The notes under the pieces were generated by a model that saw nothing but the letters and a program-made list of their open reading frames with translations, searched no databases and had not been told where the DNA came from. Of a DNA stretch of 64,000 nt, positions 38,526 through 62,917 are shown piece by piece. Made by a program: the position numbers and the translations under genes. The stretch comes from Marinomonas pollencensis (lineage in GTDB: Bacteria; Pseudomonadota; Gammaproteobacteria; Pseudomonadales; Marinomonadaceae), in the NCBI RefSeq assembly GCF_003387375.1, contig NZ_QUNG01000005.1, positions 186,001 through 250,000 on the forward strand. The letters are read 5' to 3'. Position 1 is the stretch's first letter. Every line of letters begins with the position of its first letter.

Positions 38526-39878
38526 TTAGCTGCGGATATAAACCCCATGACGATTTTCAATACACTGACAAAGCTCGAGCTCCATTAACACTTGCATCAT
38601 CGCCGGGGCAGTTAAGTTACTGTGACGAACTAAAGCATCAAAGTCCATCGCTTGAGATTCCTTTTCCAACAACTCAGCAACACCGCGAGCCTGGTTTGAA
38701 ATATGATCAGGCAAAGGGGTTATTCGATCGAGCTTAAGCAGGGATAAAGTACTGGTATCTCTGTCCATTACTTTTTGGGCAGGTTGTTTATTTGCTTGTT
38801 TTAACAATGTTTCCCGTGAAACATCAGATTCTTTTTTGGCGCTTTTAAAGGTGCGTTGCTGGATGTTTGTTGTCAGCCCCTGATGGCAAGATTGCGCGAC
38901 AGGTAAAATATCGCCCAAGATATCCTCTACATGACGAACCAGCACAGCCCCTTGACGTATCAATTGGTGACAGCCTTCGGCTTGCGCGTCTTTCACTCTA
39001 CCTGGTAGTGCAAATACCTCACGGTTTTGCTGAAGAGCATAATTAGCACTGATCAAGGAGCCACTTTTAAGTGAGGCCTCTGTCACCAATACCCCCAAAC
39101 TCAAGCCACTAATAATCCGATTTCGGGGAGGAAATAGGTGAGGGCGAACTCCTGTCTGTAATGGGTATTCGCTAACTAAGCATCCCCCTTGTGACAAGAT
39201 TTCTTCGAACAAGGCTTTATTCTGCACGGGGTAATGCACTAATAAACCCGTCCCCATCACAGCTATCGTTGGACTAGCTTGCGCAGAGAGCGCCCCTTGA
39301 TGAGCTGCCGTATCGATACCTCGCGCCCCACCGCTAACGATGGAAATACCATGCTGGGCTAACTGACTGGCGAGCTGTCGCGTCACTTCTCGCCCGTAAC
39401 CAGTACAACGCCGTGCACCAACTATGCCTAATTTAGGATAAGCCAGGGCATCGAGCTTACCTTCTACATATAAAAAGGCTGGTGCAACACTTATTTGCTT
39501 TAGCATACTGGGATATTGCGCATCGCTTTGGAGCAGTAAATGATGATTCTCTTCCGCTAGCCAGTCTAGAGTTTGCTGCTTTTTGGCGGCTTGCTCATCC
39601 AAAAGAGTACCATGATGCAAGTAAGCCATCGCTTCGCGTGCTGTCACTTCAGGCCATTTTAGCTGGCGTAACAGTTCATAATTTACCTCTTCAGGAAAAG
39701 CACCAGCCTCGCAGTCTGATAGCAAGTCTTCAGTTTGCATCGCTTCCAGTTCGCTAAAATAAGTAAACAAGCGAGATAATCTCGATGGCCCAATGGAAGA
39801 TAAGAAACTTAGGCTGAGCCAATCCTCATGAGTTAGCCCTCCTAGTGGTTGAATAGAAGTAGTCATATTGCTGTGCAT
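38526..39878 (-). CDS. dprA: DNA processing protein DprA
   Basis: Loads RecA on incoming single-stranded DNA in natural transformation. 450 residues. The Rossmann-like core is seen in LGIVGARRCTGYGREVTRQL, IVSGGARGIDTAAHQGAL and FPPRNRIISGLS. A C-terminal winged helix (about 385-445) follows. The linker carries the peptide DVSRET, encoded by a parS-like palindrome. The first ATG has AAGG directly in front; the ATG four codons later (39866) is equally plausible. The tsaC and LysM genes that flank dprA in Pseudomonas are not here. Confidence 0.93.
   Translation of the reverse strand: MHSNMTTSIQPLGGLTHEDWLSLSFLSSIGPSRLSRLFTYFSELEAMQTEDLLSDCEAGAFPEEVNYELLRQLKWPEVTAREAMAYLHHGTLLDEQAAKKQQTLDWLAEENHHLLLQSDAQYPSMLKQISVAPAFLYVEGKLDALAYPKLGIVGARRCTGYGREVTRQLASQLAQHGISIVSGGARGIDTAAHQGALSAQASPTIAVMGTGLLVHYPVQNKALFEEILSQGGCLVSEYPLQTGVRPHLFPPRNRIISGLSLGVLVTEASLKSGSLISANYALQQNREVFALPGRVKDAQAEGCHQLIRQGAVLVRHVEDILGDILPVAQSCHQGLTTNIQQRTFKSAKKESDVSRETLLKQANKQPAQKVMDRDTSTLSLLKLDRITPLPDHISNQARGVAELLEKESQAMDFDALVRHSNLTAPAMMQVLMELELCQCIENRHGVYIRS
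38808..38823. promoter_or_regulatory. parS-like site 1 (in dprA)
   Basis: TGTTTCCCGTGAAACA differs from the parS consensus TGTTTCACGTGAAACA at one position. It lies about 24 kb from oriC, inside dprA, where it encodes VSRET on the minus strand. Confidence 0.75.
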
Positions 39879-40125
39879 CCTTGCGACAGTGAAATTTACG
39901 GGTAAGAAATTTATTAATGTCCTCCTCTTGGTCTAGATTGAAAATCCGTTTTTCGCCATTAAAATCCTTTAAATAGGCAGATTCTATTAACTCGATATGA
40001 AGGAATTGCCTAAAAAATCGGCATCACAGCAATGCCCATCTTCACCACTTGCGGTACAATATAGGTAAGAAAAGGTCGCGCTGAAAATAGTGTGGCAAAG
40101 AATATAAGACATATTGGAAAAGATC

Positions 40126-40638
40126 ATGGCCGTTTTACCCGTACTCGAATATCCAGATCCACGCCTGCGCAAAGTCGCAGAACCGATCACAGAATTTACT
40201 CCTGAGCTGCAAACTCAAATCGATGACATGTTAGACACCATGTACGATGAGAATGGTTTGGGGCTAGCTGCCACTCAGGTAGATTATCACTATCGTCTTG
40301 TTGTTATGGACTTTTCAGAAGAACGTAATGAACCACTGGTGTTCATTAACCCTGAATTCGAAATCGTCAACGACGAACCGAACGAGTTTCAAGAAGGCTG
40401 CTTATCAGTACCTGGTTTTTACGAACACATTTACCGCGCAGCGGAAGTGATTGTGAAAGCATTAGATCGCAATGGTAAGCCTTTTGAAATGAAAGTTGAT
40501 GAGCTACTAGCGGTATGCGTGCAGCATGAAATTGACCACCTAGATGGCAAATTAATGGTTGATTACTTGTCACCATTAAAACGCAACCGTATCAAAACGA
40601 AACTGCTCAAGGCTCAAAAAAACGCAGCTAAATCTTGA
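40126..40638 (+). CDS. def: Peptide deformylase
   Basis: Removes the formyl group from the N-terminal methionine of new proteins. About 170 residues. The three family motifs are [16 protein letters not shown] (Cys92) and QHEIDH (His134, Glu135, His138). ATG 40126 with GGAAAAG upstream is preferred over TTG 40114. fmt lies downstream but a terminator separates them. Confidence 0.97.
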
Positions 40639-40725
40639 TGCTACAGCACACTCTTCGATGGCGACGACATTCACAACTAATACTGATGCAAGAATGTCGT
40701 TGAGCCTCTGAATACCCATTTAGTG

Positions 40726-40749
40726 AATCAGGCTTCGGCCTGATTTTTT
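40726..40749 (+). terminator. Terminator after def
   Basis: AATCAGGC and GCCTGATT pair across a TTCG tetraloop and are followed by a T run. A looser 9-bp inverted repeat (ACGACATTC 40664-40672, GAATGTCGT 40692-40700) precedes it. Confidence 0.9.
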
Positions 40750-40764
40750 CGTTAAGGAAACCAA

Positions 40765-41742
40765 ATGACAACTTCTCCGTTACGTATTGTATTTGCAGGC
40801 ACCCCTGAATTTGCCGCGGTCAGCCTACAAGCGTTATTAGACAAGCAACAACAAAACAACTACCAACTAGTCGGTGTTTACACCCAACCTGACCGCCCAT
40901 CCGGTCGTGGTCATAAATTGGTAGCAAGCCCAGTAAAGCAACTTGCTATTGAACATGACATTCCTGTATTTCAGCCGCTTAATTTTAAAGCGGAAGAAGA
41001 CAAAACAGCACTGGCTCAACTTAACGCAGACATTATGATAGTCGCCGCTTACGGTATCATCTTACCTAAAGCCGTTCTCGATACTCCTAAACTTGGCTGT
41101 CTAAACGTCCATGGTTCAATTCTACCTAGATGGCGTGGTGCTGCACCCATTCACAGAGCCTTGATAGCTGGAGACAAAACCACTGGTATCACTATCATGC
41201 AAATGGATGTCGGCTTAGACACCGGCGATATGTTGTTGAAAGCCTATTGTGATATCAAACCAACAGATACCTCTGCCAGCCTACATGACCAGTTAGCTAA
41301 ACTGGGTGGTGAGGCCTTGGTCGAAGCATTAGAAAAACTCAAAAAAGGCGAGCTAGTCGCAGAGAAGCAGGACGATAGTTTGAGCAACTATGCTGCAAAA
41401 CTCACTAAGCAAGAAGGGGACATTCAATGGAACCAGGACGCGGAATTAATCGAGCGTCAGGTTCGGGGTTTGTCACCATGGCCATCTGCTTTCACAAAAA
41501 CTAGCGAAGGTGTAATGAAGATTCATGGGGCCGAATTAGCGAGCCTAGATGCAAGCAGTGCAACGCCAGGTGAAGTCCTAGTGGTTAGCAAAGAGGGTGT
41601 CATCGTCGCTACCGGACAGGGAAGCGTTCGAATTACTGAGGTGCAATTCGCCGGAGGCAAACGCATGAAAGTGCAAGATGCTCTAAATGGTAAACACAAA
41701 GCAGCCTTACAAATAGGCCAACACTTCGGCTCAGTAGAGTAA
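40765..41742 (+). CDS. fmt: Methionyl-tRNA formyltransferase
   Basis: Formylates initiator Met-tRNA with 10-formyl-tetrahydrofolate. 325 residues. FAGTPEFAAVSLQAL at the N terminus, the catalytic NVHGSILPRWRGAAPI block with Asn and His, and the C-terminal OB-fold domain (about 210-320). RBS AAGGAAA. Five bases separate it from rsmB. Confidence 0.97.
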   Translation: MTTSPLRIVFAGTPEFAAVSLQALLDKQQQNNYQLVGVYTQPDRPSGRGHKLVASPVKQLAIEHDIPVFQPLNFKAEEDKTALAQLNADIMIVAAYGIILPKAVLDTPKLGCLNVHGSILPRWRGAAPIHRALIAGDKTTGITIMQMDVGLDTGDMLLKAYCDIKPTDTSASLHDQLAKLGGEALVEALEKLKKGELVAEKQDDSLSNYAAKLTKQEGDIQWNQDAELIERQVRGLSPWPSAFTKTSEGVMKIHGAELASLDASSATPGEVLVVSKEGVIVATGQGSVRITEVQFAGGKRMKVQDALNGKHKAALQIGQHFGSVE

Positions 41743-41747
41743 TCATA

Positions 41748-43118
41748 ATGAAACCAACAGACGTTCCTTCTATCCAACACAGTGCGCGACAAGTTGCCAT
41801 TCAAGTAGTGACAAATATCTTGCTGCAACAAGGTTCTTTAAGCACTCAGTTAGCCCGCCATCAACATGATGTCGCCAGTGAACATATTCCTCTACTTAAA
41901 GAGCTATGCTTTGGTGTCTGCCGCCAATACCCTCTATTAAATAGTATTGCTCTGCACCTTTTGAACCACCCTTTTGAAGAAAAGGACATGGACCTTTATG
42001 CCGCACTCTTGATCGGCCTATACCAACTTGGTTACATGAACACTCCCGACCATGCCGCGGTTAATGAAACGGTTGAAGCCTGTCGTTTATTAAATAAAGA
42101 CTGGGCCACCAAACTTATCAATGCCGTCTTACGTCGTTATCAACGGGAAGCTGATGATATTATTGAAGCCCTCGAAGCCATGCCATCGGTGGAATACAAC
42201 CAGCCAAAATGGCTTGTGAAACGCTTTAAGAAACATTGGCCTGAACAGCTTGAACAAATAATAGAAGCAAGCAATACACATCCTCCTATGTGTATTCGCA
42301 TTAACGAAAGCCAAGTTTCACGTGAAACATACAAGATTCAATTGGCAGAACAAGGTATAGAATCACAAGATGGCGTGCTTTCTCCTTCGGCTTTGTACCT
42401 AAGATCAGCAGTACGAGTAAATGAGTTACCTGATTTCGATGATGGTTTTTCAAGTGTACAAGATGAATCTGCTCAATTAGCTGCACACATATTAGCGCCG
42501 GAAATAGGGGAGCGAGTGCTAGATGCTTGCGCAGCCCCTGGTGGAAAAACCGGGCATTTGCTTGAATTTGCCGCAGCAAAAGAAAACGCGGAACAAACAC
42601 TTGATCTCACTGCTGTCGAACTAGAGCCTTGGCGACTAGAGAAAATTGAAGCCAACCTAGAACGAATTGGCCTTATGGCAAACTTACAGTGTGCTGATGC
42701 TGGTGACCTTGATGCTTGGTGGGATGGAATTCAATTCGATAAAATTCTTCTAGATGTGCCTTGTTCAGCAACGGGCGTTATTCGTCGTAACCCTGACATC
42801 AAAATTAACCGAAAACCCGCAGAGATAGATGAACTAACAAGCATCCAAAAAAACATTGTGGATCAGGTATGGAAAACATTAAAACCCGGTGGTTATCTTC
42901 TATATGCTACTTGCTCTCTGATGCCCGAAGAAAACGAACAGCAAGTAGCGGCGTTTCTTGCTACTCACGATGACGCAATAGAAAAACCTTTAAACAGCCT
43001 AAACTCAGAGCTCGATATATCACTTGGCCTTCCTGTCTCCCATGGCCATCAATTGTTCCCAACAGTAAAAGGCAATGATGGTTTTTACTATTGCTTGATT
43101 CAAAAAGTGATTGCTTAA
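41748..43118 (+). CDS. rsmB: 16S rRNA (cytosine-967-C5)-methyltransferase
   Basis: 456 residues. An N-terminal NusB-like RNA-binding domain (about 10-140) is followed by the SAM-dependent domain with LDACAAPGGKTGHLLE, DVPCSATGVIRRNPDIK (Pro-Cys loop) and the catalytic cysteine in YATCSLMPEEN. The linker around residue 190 includes QVSRETY, encoded by a parS-like palindrome. Operon with fmt, as in most gammaproteobacteria. Confidence 0.97.
   Translation: MKPTDVPSIQHSARQVAIQVVTNILLQQGSLSTQLARHQHDVASEHIPLLKELCFGVCRQYPLLNSIALHLLNHPFEEKDMDLYAALLIGLYQLGYMNTPDHAAVNETVEACRLLNKDWATKLINAVLRRYQREADDIIEALEAMPSVEYNQPKWLVKRFKKHWPEQLEQIIEASNTHPPMCIRINESQVSRETYKIQLAEQGIESQDGVLSPSALYLRSAVRVNELPDFDDGFSSVQDESAQLAAHILAPEIGERVLDACAAPGGKTGHLLEFAAAKENAEQTLDLTAVELEPWRLEKIEANLERIGLMANLQCADAGDLDAWWDGIQFDKILLDVPCSATGVIRRNPDIKINRKPAEIDELTSIQKNIVDQVWKTLKPGGYLLYATCSLMPEENEQQVAAFLATHDDAIEKPLNSLNSELDISLGLPVSHGHQLFPTVKGNDGFYYCLIQKVIA
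42314..42329. promoter_or_regulatory. parS-like site 2 (in rsmB)
   Basis: AGTTTCACGTGAAACA matches the parS consensus in 15 of 16 bases (first base A for T) with the central 14 bases perfect. It sits inside rsmB and encodes VSRET, about 20 kb from oriC. Confidence 0.8.
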
Positions 43119-43244
43119 CATAACGACTGTTTAACATGGCTAATATTTACCAAACCTACTGTGCGTAGATCATTAGCCTTATTAGTTTAAAAACCAACAG
43201 ATTTTCAGCTAACAGGTTTAATAGCTAAGAAGTCTTGTTTACCG

Positions 43245-43300
43245 AAAATGCTCAGGCTGCTGTTGTTTCACATGAAACAGTTAGTTGCATGAGCATTTTT
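43245..43300 (+). terminator. Terminator-like hairpin enclosing a parS-like palindrome
   Basis: AAAATGCTCA (43245-43254) and TGAGCATTTT (43290-43299) are exact inverted arms. Between them is the palindrome at 43264-43279. The right arm ends in a T run, so a rho-independent terminator for fmt-rsmB is possible. Confidence 0.55.
43264..43279. promoter_or_regulatory. parS-like site 3
   Basis: TGTTTCACATGAAACA has a single mismatch to the parS consensus (A for G at the centre). It is intergenic, about 19 kb from oriC. Confidence 0.6.
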
Positions 43301-43403: not shown

Positions 43404-43451
43404 GTCTTGGTGTCTTGGTGTCTTGGTGTCTTGGTGTCTTGGTGTCTTGGT
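43404..43451. repeat. Tandem repeat, six copies of an 8-bp unit
   Basis: Six exact consecutive copies of GTCTTGGT, 48 bases in total, between rsmB and trkA. Copy number is probably variable by slippage. It is too short and lacks spacers to be a CRISPR. Confidence 0.95.
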
Positions 43452-43695: not shown

Positions 43696-45069
43696 ATGAA
43701 AATCATCATTATTGGAGCAGGCCAAGTTGGCGCTACTCTGGCTGAAAATCTCGCGAATGAGGACAATGATATAACCGTCATTGATCCTGACTTAACCCGT
43801 TTAAGAGAACTTCAAGATCGTTTAGACATTCAAACAGTGGAAGGCAGTGGCTCTCATCCAGCAATCCTAGCTCAAGCAGGTTGTAATGATGCCGATATGT
43901 TGATCGCTGTAAGCAACCAAGATGAAACCAATATGGTGGCTTGTCAGGTTGCACATACTTTATTTAAAACGCCAACAAAAATCGGTCGTGTTCGCTCTAG
44001 TGCCTATGCAGGCTATCCTGAACTATTCAACGATCAAGCTCTCCCCATTGATGTTCGTATCAGCCCAGAAAAAGAAGTCACCAAACATTTAAGCCGTCTG
44101 ATTCGTTATCCGGGTGCATTACAAGTAATGGAGTTTGCCGACGGCAAAGTTCAGCTGGTTGTGGTCAAAGCAGAAAAAGGCGGTCCACTGATCGATCAGC
44201 CGATCAGTTTTCTGCGCGAACATATGCCTTCTATTCAAACCCGAATAGCCGCTATTTATCGCGACGGTAAATCGATCAAACCGGATGGCAATACTTGTAT
44301 TCGAGCCAACGACGAAGTCTTCTTTCTAACACCACAACGCGATGTGTTAGACGTGATGAGTGAGCTACGACCTTTGGATACCCCTTACCGTCGCATTATT
44401 ATTGCCGGCGGCGGTAATATTGGGGAGCGCCTAGCTCACAGCTTAGAGAAAGAGTACCGCGTCAAAATTATAGAACGCGACCTAGAGCGCTGTCGCTATT
44501 TGTCAGAGAACTTGGACAGCACGATTGTTCTTAACGGCGACGCTTCAAAAAAAGAATTGCTGCTAGAAGAAAACATAGAGTCTACTGATGTGTTCTGTGC
44601 ACTGACTAACAATGATGAGGCAAATATTATGTCGTCAATGTTGGCTAAAGTATTGGGTGTTCGCACGGTTATGACCATCATCAACAACCCAGCTTACGTC
44701 GACATAGTGCAAGAAGGGATGATCGATATTGCTATCTCTCCTCAGCAGACTACGATCAGCTCTCTGCTAAGCTATATTCGCCGAGGAGATGTTGTCAACG
44801 TACACTCTATGCGTAAAGGTGCTGCAGAAGCGTTAGAGGCCGTTGCTCATGGGGATATGCGATCATCTAAAGTGGTTGGTCGTAGCATAGCCAAAATTAA
44901 CCTACCTGAAGGTGCGACAATCGGGGCGGTGGTTCGCGGTGACGATATCATTCTCGCGACCGGAGATGTGGTAATTCAAGCAGAAGATCACGTCATCATT
45001 TTTGTCTCTAATAAAAAACAAATACCCGCCGTGGAGCAATTATTCCAAGTGGGATTAACCTTCTTTTAA
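43696..45069 (+). CDS. trkA: Trk potassium uptake regulatory subunit TrkA
   Basis: Cytosolic NAD-binding gating subunit of the Trk K+ transporter. 457 residues with two RCK units: the first Rossmann motif IIGAGQVGATLAENLA (residue 5 on), the second IAGGGNIGERLAHSLE (about 236). Each is followed by a TrkA-C domain. Followed by trkH, 128 bases downstream. Confidence 0.97.
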   Translation: MKIIIIGAGQVGATLAENLANEDNDITVIDPDLTRLRELQDRLDIQTVEGSGSHPAILAQAGCNDADMLIAVSNQDETNMVACQVAHTLFKTPTKIGRVRSSAYAGYPELFNDQALPIDVRISPEKEVTKHLSRLIRYPGALQVMEFADGKVQLVVVKAEKGGPLIDQPISFLREHMPSIQTRIAAIYRDGKSIKPDGNTCIRANDEVFFLTPQRDVLDVMSELRPLDTPYRRIIIAGGGNIGERLAHSLEKEYRVKIIERDLERCRYLSENLDSTIVLNGDASKKELLLEENIESTDVFCALTNNDEANIMSSMLAKVLGVRTVMTIINNPAYVDIVQEGMIDIAISPQQTTISSLLSYIRRGDVVNVHSMRKGAAEALEAVAHGDMRSSKVVGRSIAKINLPEGATIGAVVRGDDIILATGDVVIQAEDHVIIFVSNKKQIPAVEQLFQVGLTFF

Positions 45070-60846: not shown

Positions 60847-62403
60847 TCAAGTGGTCAGAATTCGCATCAATTGTTTGTAGTCTTCACGGATATCAGAATC
60901 CGTATCTTGTAGTTCTTTGATCTTACGAATCGCATGCAAAGCAGTGGTATGATCACGGCCACCAAAGGCATCGCCAATCTCAGGCAAACTGTGGTTGGTC
61001 AGTTCTTTCGCCAGTGACATAGCCACTTGACGAGGACGAGCAACAGACCGACTGCGACGTTTCGATAATAAGTCGCTGATTTTGATTTTATAATACTCAG
61101 CAACAATGCGCTGAATATTATCAATGTTCACCAACTTATCTTGCAAGGCCAAAAGGTCTTTTAGTGACTCGCGAACAAAATCTGGTGTAATGGCACGACC
61201 AGTGAAGTGAGAGTTCGCAATCACACGCTTTAATGCACCTTCCAATTCTCGCACATTAGAACGAATTTTTTGAGCGATAAAAAAGGCAGAGTCATAAGAC
61301 AATTTCACGCCACTTTCATCCGCTTTACGCATCAGGATAGCGACTCGGGTTTCCAGCTCTGGTGGCTCAATGGCAACGGTTAATCCCCATCCAAAACGAG
61401 ACTTTAAGCGGTCTTCCAAACCCTGAATTTCTTTCGGGTAACGGTCACAGGTTAAAATCATCTGTTGGCCGCCTTCCAATAAGGCATTAAAGGTATGGAA
61501 AAATTCCTCTTGGGTGCGATCTTTCCCCGCGAAAAACTGAATATCATCAATTAACAGCGCATCAACCGAACGATAATAACGCTTAAAATCGTTAATCGCG
61601 TTCAATTGCAACGCTTTAACCATGTCTGCCACAAAGCGCTCAGAATGCAGATAAACCACTTTCGCATTAGGATTATGGCGCATCATTTCTGTACCAACGG
61701 CTTGCATTAAGTGAGTTTTACCTAAGCCAACACCACCATATATAAAGAGTGGGTTGTACGCACCGCCAGGATTTTCCGCGACTTGTAACGCGGCAGCATG
61801 GGCAAGTTGGTTCGATTTACCTTCAATGAAGTTTTCGAAAGTAAAGGAGTTATTAAGATTAGCGCCGTGGTTGATTCCGCCTTCCACTTCCACTTTACGT
61901 TTCGGTGCTGTCAGCGGTAACTGACCTTGTTCATAAGGTTCCAAGTCATGGCCACGTAGCCCAGCTCCCGATAAGGTTAATGGCGCTTCGAATTCTAAAT
62001 CAGCATGCTGGCTGCCTTCGCCATCCATTAAGCCAAAGCCCACCCCTGGTCGATAACCGGATTCATTCGCCACTTCATTATTTAATGGGCTAGAAATAGG
62101 TTCGACTGGTGGTGCTGGCGGCGGCGGTGCAGATTGATTCGCTTGCGCAAAATTTTGCTCTTTAACAGCAAAACGTAAAGTCGGCGAAGGGTCGGTGCCA
62201 GCAAACTCTGACAACAACTCTTTGATACGCGCTTGATACTTGTTACTCACCCAATCTAAAACAAAACGGTTGGGTGCGCGTAGGCACAATTCGCCATTGG
62301 GCGTCATTTCAGCCTGTAACGGACGAATCCAAGTGTTGAACTGCGATGTGGAAAACTCATCCTGCAGGCGTTGCAGGCAAAGATTCCAATGCTCCAAAGA
62401 CAC
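60847..62403 (-). CDS. dnaA: Replication initiator DnaA
   Basis: 518 residues. Domain I (W-rich start [22 protein letters not shown]), a long variable linker, AAA+ with [14 protein letters not shown] and [13 protein letters not shown]-terminal DNA-binding [14 protein letters not shown] and [11 protein letters not shown]. The start codon is GTG with GAGGAG eleven bases upstream. First gene of the leftward replication operon; oriC lies directly upstream. Confidence 0.98.
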
Positions 62404-62917
62404 TGTAGACGTACTCCTCGGTTGAGTGACAGAAATAAGAAGCGGATTTTACCTCGCGAAAACCTAGTTATCCACACATAAATGGAAAAAGAAGGATTCT
62501 CTGTATGAAAATATATTTTTGTTAATAACAGGTAAGGTTATACACACCAGTAGATAAAATTGATTTGGTGTGCATAAAACAGGTACTTATACACATATTA
62601 ACAACGCTTTCTCGATTTTATTATCCACAGCTGGTTTCAAAGCTATCCTTTTGATTTTTATACACATAAATAACAGAAAAATCATTCTGTTTATAACTTT
62701 TGAAAACTCAAAAACAAACTGCCCACAGGGCAGGTAAAAGTCTGTGTGTAACTATTTAATGGAATGTGTGGTTATTTTTTTAACAATTAAGCCTTGCTAA
62801 TGATTGAATTCCTTAAGGAAAGGTTTTAAAATCCGCGCCCTGATTTTGAATCAAATGCTGAGGCTTGGCTAAGGCTAACCCTCAAAACTGAAACACTGCT
62901 TCAGTGAGTGAATAAAG
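62404..62917. other. oriC: Chromosomal replication origin oriC
   Basis: 514 AT-rich bases between dnaA and rpmH. DnaA boxes fitting TTATnCACA: 62468-62476, 62538-62546, 62587-62595, 62621-62629 and 62658-62666 (plus strand), and 62569-62577 (minus strand). Weaker boxes lie near 62743-62751 and 62765-62774. This matches oriC of Pseudomonas, which also lies between dnaA and rpmH. Confidence 0.9.
62804..62832 (+). promoter_or_regulatory. Promoter of rpmH-rnpA
   Basis: TTGAAT (62804-62809) and TAAAAT (62827-62832) at exactly 17 bases spacing fit a sigma-70 promoter, about 85 bases before rpmH. Confidence 0.55.

Follow-up and report, generated by a model that had tools for sequence, protein, structure and literature searches.

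A parS-like cluster near the replication origin of Marinomonas pollencensis, with one copy held in rsmB across the genus and another at the apex of a predicted terminator

Why should two unrelated genes lying close together near a replication origin encode the same five amino acids, VSRET, at a parS-like palindrome, and what is a third such palindrome doing downstream of one of them? The question is raised by a 64,000-nucleotide stretch of Marinomonas pollencensis (RefSeq assembly GCF_003387375.1, contig NZ_QUNG01000005.1, here C5, positions 186001-250000; hereafter the window), in which sites resembling parS, the DNA element recognized by the partitioning protein ParB, lie in dprA, in rsmB and between rsmB and trkA. 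We propose that the three very probably form an origin-proximal parS cluster, that is, a centromere, with the rsmB copy as the fixed anchor of the genus and further copies turning over around that anchor. The features on which the argument depends are as follows.

38808..38823, minus strand: site 1, parS-like, TGTTTCACGGGAAACA on the dprA strand; codons GTT TCA CGG GAA ACA read VSRET in the variable linker of DprA
42314..42329, plus strand: site 2, the anchor, putative parS in rsmB codons 190-194, reading VSRET
43264..43279, plus strand: site 3, parS-like TGTTTCACATGAAACA between rsmB and trkA, in the apical stem of a predicted hairpin
38526..39878, minus strand: dprA, host of site 1 (TIGR00732, above cut-off)
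41748..43118, plus strand: rsmB, 16S rRNA m5C967 methyltransferase gene, host of site 2 (TIGR00563, above cut-off; aligned with the E. coli-type SUN protein 1sqf)
43244..43300, plus strand: predicted intrinsic terminator of rsmB, with an 11-bp outer stem, a T-rich 3' side and site 3 at its apex
43696..45069, plus strand: trkA, 3' of site 3
60847..62403, minus strand: dnaA

The initial annotation had reported three matches to parS at 15 of 16 positions about 20 kb from oriC, two of them inside genes and reading VSRET, and all of this holds. The 16-mers at 38808, 42314 and 43264 each lie one mismatch from TGTTTCACGTGAAACA and together span less than 4.5 kb; those in dprA (minus strand) and rsmB are read in the same frame; and the sites are 19-24 kb from the gap between dnaA and rpmH (62404-62917). 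This gap holds two TTATCCACA DnaA boxes, at 62468 and 62621, and is where we infer oriC to lie, oriC and rpmH having been read by eye. No further match to TGTTTCACGTGAAACA at up to three mismatches occurs within the 64-kb window. Taken alone, the window argues only moderately strongly for parS sites: of 100 shuffled windows, 2 also gave at least three matches at up to three mismatches. The whole genome (3,870,684 bases in 42 contigs), which the initial annotation had proposed searching for further 15-of-16 matches, contains no exact match to TGTTTCACGTGAAACA; the only matches at one mismatch are the three clustered sites, against none for a reversed-pattern control at this threshold, and three more appear at two mismatches. 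Across 48 Marinomonas genomes, counted at no more than one mismatch and again with the reversed pattern as control, there were 113 forward matches versus 8. The whole-genome and genus counts rule out chance as the source of the sites.

The window was compared with the surroundings of rsmB in 46 relatives (at most 20 kb each), giving 47 loci that together hold 108 of the 113 matches at no more than one mismatch. The rsmB site is present at the homologous position in all 46 genomes that hold that part of rsmB, a count that omits L080 (G026), whose sequence ends before the site region, and G041, which has no rsmB match; it has at most one mismatch in 45 of them. The remaining genome, L063, has a site with two mismatches and an exact copy 45 bp on. 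When the sites were mapped on a five-protein tree, the sole constant was the rsmB site, at nucleotide 563 or 566 of the gene (560 in L063). The satellite sites, counted at up to two mismatches from degenerate parS, are found between rsmB and trkA in 35 of 47 loci; 22 of 47 have one about 4.5-5.0 kb upstream of rsmB, and 8 of 46 have one in the DprA linker. A second rsmB copy 45 bp downstream of the first is present in 11 genomes that form a single clade. The pattern is one of a fixed rsmB anchor with changing satellites. In the two-copy clade (L058, L062, L063, L065, L068-L070, L074-L076 and L078), the spacing of exactly 45 bp amounts to 15 codons, and the second copy also reads VSRET (VSHET in L070).

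Within rsmB, VSRET is the most codon-conserved five-codon window, with a mean major-codon frequency of 0.978, compared to 0.749 for the best window that does not overlap it. Restricted to the rows that keep the amino acid, the value is 0.991; the null, in which codons for each of these amino acids were drawn from positions with a conserved residue in six nearby genes, had a median of 0.547, and none of 200,000 draws reached the observed value. Bases 2-16 of the site read GTTTCACGTGAAACA in 41 of 46 genomes, and the five deviating rows are two sister genomes with ACG in place of ACA and three genomes with a single amino-acid change each, Ser to Pro, Glu to Gly or Thr to Ile. By the Y5/R12 rule for parS, the S191P form VPRET (TGTTCCACGTGAAACA) and the E193G form VSRGT (TGTTTCACGTGGAACA) are both still parS. 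The Thr to Ile change (VSREI) is that of L063, the genome with the exact second copy. Since two amino-acid changes retain parS, it appears to be the DNA, and not the peptide, that is kept. The window's own rsmB site has its one mismatch at base 1, the wobble position of the codon preceding VSRET, and this base varies freely in the genus (A in 17, T in 11, C in 11 and G in 7 of 46). Together, these observations support the view that selection on the DNA froze rsmB codons 190-194. Pseudomonas parS sites are described as having C5 and G12 (PMC4368675).

That dprA and rsmB share VSRET is partly mechanical, because TTTCACGTGAAA can be read through in two open frames only, VSRET or xFHVKx; the third is closed by a TGA except where base 12 is G. 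Sites inside genes match this rule, being of the VSRET type in rsmB, dprA, glyS and gmhB and reading FHVK or FHVE in recF (host genes were identified for glyS, gmhB and recF in L166 and for recF in L113). The window's recF is without a site and reads GVFHFD there. A parS-like site in L131 (family f37) lies at another place in rsmB, nucleotide 438, and uses the third frame, CFTWNH, with G at base 12.

RsmB outside the genus suggests why the site could settle where it did. Of 137 non-Marinomonas genomes with an RsmB match we used 60, hand-picked in favour of long contigs from 38 families with at most four each; L129, without aligned residues at the position, was omitted, leaving 59. At the aligned place, SR[DE] is present in 19 of the 59 and R in 49 (the 59 include G161, which bears a site), and E. 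coli RsmB has SRD. The site may have lodged in rsmB because RsmB already tended to SR[DE] there, so that the cost was low. The proposal in the initial annotation that a DNA signal had been imposed on the protein is borne out in rsmB by the codon lock and by the amino-acid changes that keep parS, and is weaker for dprA, where the site is young and its mismatch lies in a synonymous codon choice that worsens the core; even in RsmB, SR[DE] belongs to the protein family's own sequence and only V and T look imposed.

A scan of these 60 outgroups, limited to the region from about -11 to +9 kb relative to the start of rsmB, found a match at up to two mismatches of degenerate parS in five, and at the rsmB codons in one, G161 of family f15, which carries AGTTTCACGTGAAACA. 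In G193, a relative with 88% identity to G161, the form at this place has two mismatches and reads ISRET, being either a step toward parS or a decayed copy; neither form occurs in the other 19 f15 genomes fetched. Of 25 f15 genomes searched, 24 had an RsmB match, and among these only G161 has the rsmB site, which is probably an independent gain. Separately, a strict pattern search of 369 Gammaproteobacteria genomes gave a match in five, namely this genome (exact) and four others at one mismatch, and none of the four 3-kb loci gave a hit in tblastn with RsmB and 12 neighbouring proteins. The search lends no support to RsmB sites having arisen convergently across Gammaproteobacteria, although with so strict a pattern it does not show their absence elsewhere.

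The DprA linker is hypervariable, and its sites occur at different linker places in different lineages (the window clade with L096/L097; L087; L089; and L078, where the site has two mismatches), all in the VSRET frame. The window's site 1 16-mer is identical in L061 and L066, and L096/L097 carry an NVSHGT version, so that the amino acids change along with parS-like variants. The initial annotation had suggested asking whether VSRET is missing from DprA in relatives lacking the site: VSRET is present in 4 of 46 DprA proteins, each with a parS-like site, and VSRE in none of the 38 without one. The dprA site is younger than the rsmB site.

The genes for the partitioning proteins lie beyond the window, as the initial annotation had anticipated, with parA at C5:272129-272917 and parB adjacent at C5:272956-273837, flanked by rsmG and atp genes (named by us from their translations). 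ParB, the only ParB_N match in the whole genome, is encoded about 44-49 kb from the sites. In an alignment to Caulobacter ParB (6t1f), read by eye, it keeps the equivalents of R173 and G201, residues that are described as absolutely conserved in ParB and altered in Noc (PMC7383237). These specificity residues support a cognate ParB of the parS type. The parS interpretation is supported in turn by the clustering in the genome, the conservation in the genus, the single ParB_N match and the parS-type residues.

Site 3 forms the inner stem of a predicted hairpin with a minimum free energy of -27.5 kcal/mol (z -4.04; none of 200 shuffles was as stable). As one 16-bp stretch is both a predicted ParB site and the inner stem of this hairpin, the same DNA would carry two messages. 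In relatives, the arms of the hairpin differ in sequence yet remain complementary, and by our own count perfect arms of at least 9 bases are found at 19 of 35 loci. Pairs were scored in the 17 of 35 rsmB-trkA sites with CAG within four bases after the 16-mer, a set that leans to one layout, omits the window's own hairpin and includes L059, L081 and L090, whose other arms count against the result. Changes on both sides occurred in 9 of 13 arm pairs, and five of six parS pairs were invariant, the sixth being the Y5/R12 pair; the covariation score was reached by none of 500 shuffles. Over all 35 loci, a mean of 16.7 enclosing pairs compares to 10.1 in flank shuffles. Site 3 is predicted to be the apex of the rsmB intrinsic terminator, where transcription would stop, a feature that the initial annotation does not mention. 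At the terminator apex, 32 of 35 copies have CA or TG in place of the central CG of parS, a change seen in 0 of 46 rsmB anchor copies. Six perfect tandem GTCTTGGT units occupy 43404-43451, between the predicted terminator and trkA.

Could these palindromes have been kept for reasons other than ParB? If VSRET were preserved for the function of RsmB, the match in the DNA would be a by-product, and the frequency of SR[DE] and of R at that position in outgroup RsmB, together with SRD in E. coli, lends this some support. However, selection on protein does not fix synonymous bases, and the codon identity of VSRET went unmatched in the null draws; S191P and E193G keep parS in spite of an altered RsmB peptide, and VSRET recurs at parS-like sites elsewhere, in the linker of the unrelated DprA and, in f15, in GlyS and GmhB. 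We consider this explanation very improbable. It is unlikely, though less so, that site 3 is a mere terminator hairpin with an inner stem that resembles parS by chance. It does form the apical stem of a stable hairpin with T-rich DNA on the 3' side, and its core is CACATG rather than CACGTG. Yet 35 of 47 loci carry the 16-mer within two mismatches despite differing arm sequences, the letters of the site 3 tip are kept in the 17 relatives in which the arms covary, and in 4 of the 35 loci (L071, L091, L096 and L097) the inner pairs are broken and the 16-mer is still 0-2 mismatches from degenerate parS.

A further alternative is that the sites are bound by another ParB-family protein, such as Noc, or by an unrelated regulator that binds palindromes. 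Noc-binding sites are related palindromes read by a related protein (PMC7383237), one half-site of site 1 (TGTTTCCCGTGAAACA) carries a Noc-like C, and the best NCBIfam score of the ParB found here is to the nucleoid_noc model, though below its cut-off. Noc sites and parS differ at half-site positions 1 and 6, however, and Noc has Q and R at the equivalents of 173 and 201 (PMC7383237), where the ParB found here has R and G; this protein adjoins parA and is the sole ParB_N match in the genome. No Noc protein with the Q173/R201 equivalents was found, and the identification as Noc-binding sites is disfavoured; this family of explanations we regard as scarcely probable at all.

Several observations weigh against the parS reading or the terminator. 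ParB binding at the three sites is deduced from sequence, and at sites 1 and 3 the mismatches fall within the CACGTG core, an intact core being reported as important for the affinity of P. aeruginosa ParB (PMC4368675). In dprA the mismatch comes from CGG, used where the synonymous CGT would have left the core intact, and the dprA copy of the window clade is probably weaker for this reason. The core is CACATG or CATGTG in 32 of 35 rsmB-trkA sites, so site 3 may be weak or different as a ParB site. At up to two mismatches, the genome has six matches versus four for the reversed pattern. As for the hairpin, the per-site shuffle test is weak, since at only 10 of 35 loci is the observed pairing equalled by no more than 3 of 60 flank shuffles; a rule requiring arms plus a T-tract is satisfied by only 9 of 35, the window's own not among them; and a simple terminator scan reported no terminator around site 3, probably since it limited loops to 3-8 bases.

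On the centromere reading, ParB would load on the three sites and, with ParA, would segregate the origin region, as ParABS systems do elsewhere. A parS element would have lodged in rsmB at a pre-existing SR[DE], leaving RsmB with VSRET in the genus, and further copies would have been gained and lost in the DprA linker, at the second place in rsmB, upstream, and at the tip of the rsmB terminator. A broader idea, which we hold tentatively and at somewhat less than even chances, is that a centromere spreads by nesting in elements already spelled nearly right, in free linkers and in terminator tips, and that an important copy freezes the codons of its host genus-wide while the protein yields; in that case the double role of these 16 bp, as ParB site and as terminator apex, might make site 3 a coupling point between ParB loading and the transcription that runs out of rsmB.

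Clusters of parS near oriC and parS within genes are already known. In P. aeruginosa, four of the sites parS1-parS10 are high-affinity and near oriC, and nine of the ten most likely lie in coding sequences (PMC4368675); parS1 and parS2 are within recF (PMC5521831), and whether parS3 is coding or intergenic is a point on which these two papers disagree. ParB in that species represses neighbouring genes (PMC4368675, PMC5521831). Marinomonas resembles P. aeruginosa in having parS-like sites near oriC and inside genes, and differs from it in that the P. aeruginosa consensus is TGTTCCACGTGGAACA and the host genes are others, the Marinomonas anchor being in rsmB; two further differences are the codon lock, measured here across 46 genomes, and the position of one site as the apex of a predicted terminator. 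We think that the genus-wide codon lock and the nesting in a terminator are new variants. In the set of papers that we searched there was nothing on rsmB with parS, nothing relevant on ParB and parS in Marinomonas, and nothing on a genus-wide codon lock or on parS at a terminator apex; the comparison by Livny and others (2007) may cover the conservation of in-gene parS.

The locus offers a clean natural case in which a segregation signal appears to override coding, with deviations that include amino-acid changes leaving parS. It also indicates where parS can arise, given two open frames for the TTTCACGTGAAA form and a native SR[DE] as a landing place; the set of related genomes lets gain and loss of putative centromere copies be traced around a fixed anchor, and the terminator-apex layout makes a link between ParB loading and termination directly testable.

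Family f15, of the same GTDB order, has the same consensus, with several copies in the same neighbourhood, and L166 of this family has VSRET in glyS and gmhB and VFHVKH in recF; it differs in that the rsmB site is found in G161 only. Six f15 loci (L164, L166, L169, L174, L179 and L180) carry a minus-strand parS-like site about 1.57 kb before rsmB with the open frame MFHVKH or LFHVKH (LFHMKH in L180), perhaps overlapping a gene start. L113 and L122 have pairs of exact TGTTCCACGTGGAACA 636 bp apart, about 7.8-8.6 kb after the rsmB start and reading FHVE, the host in L113 being recF.

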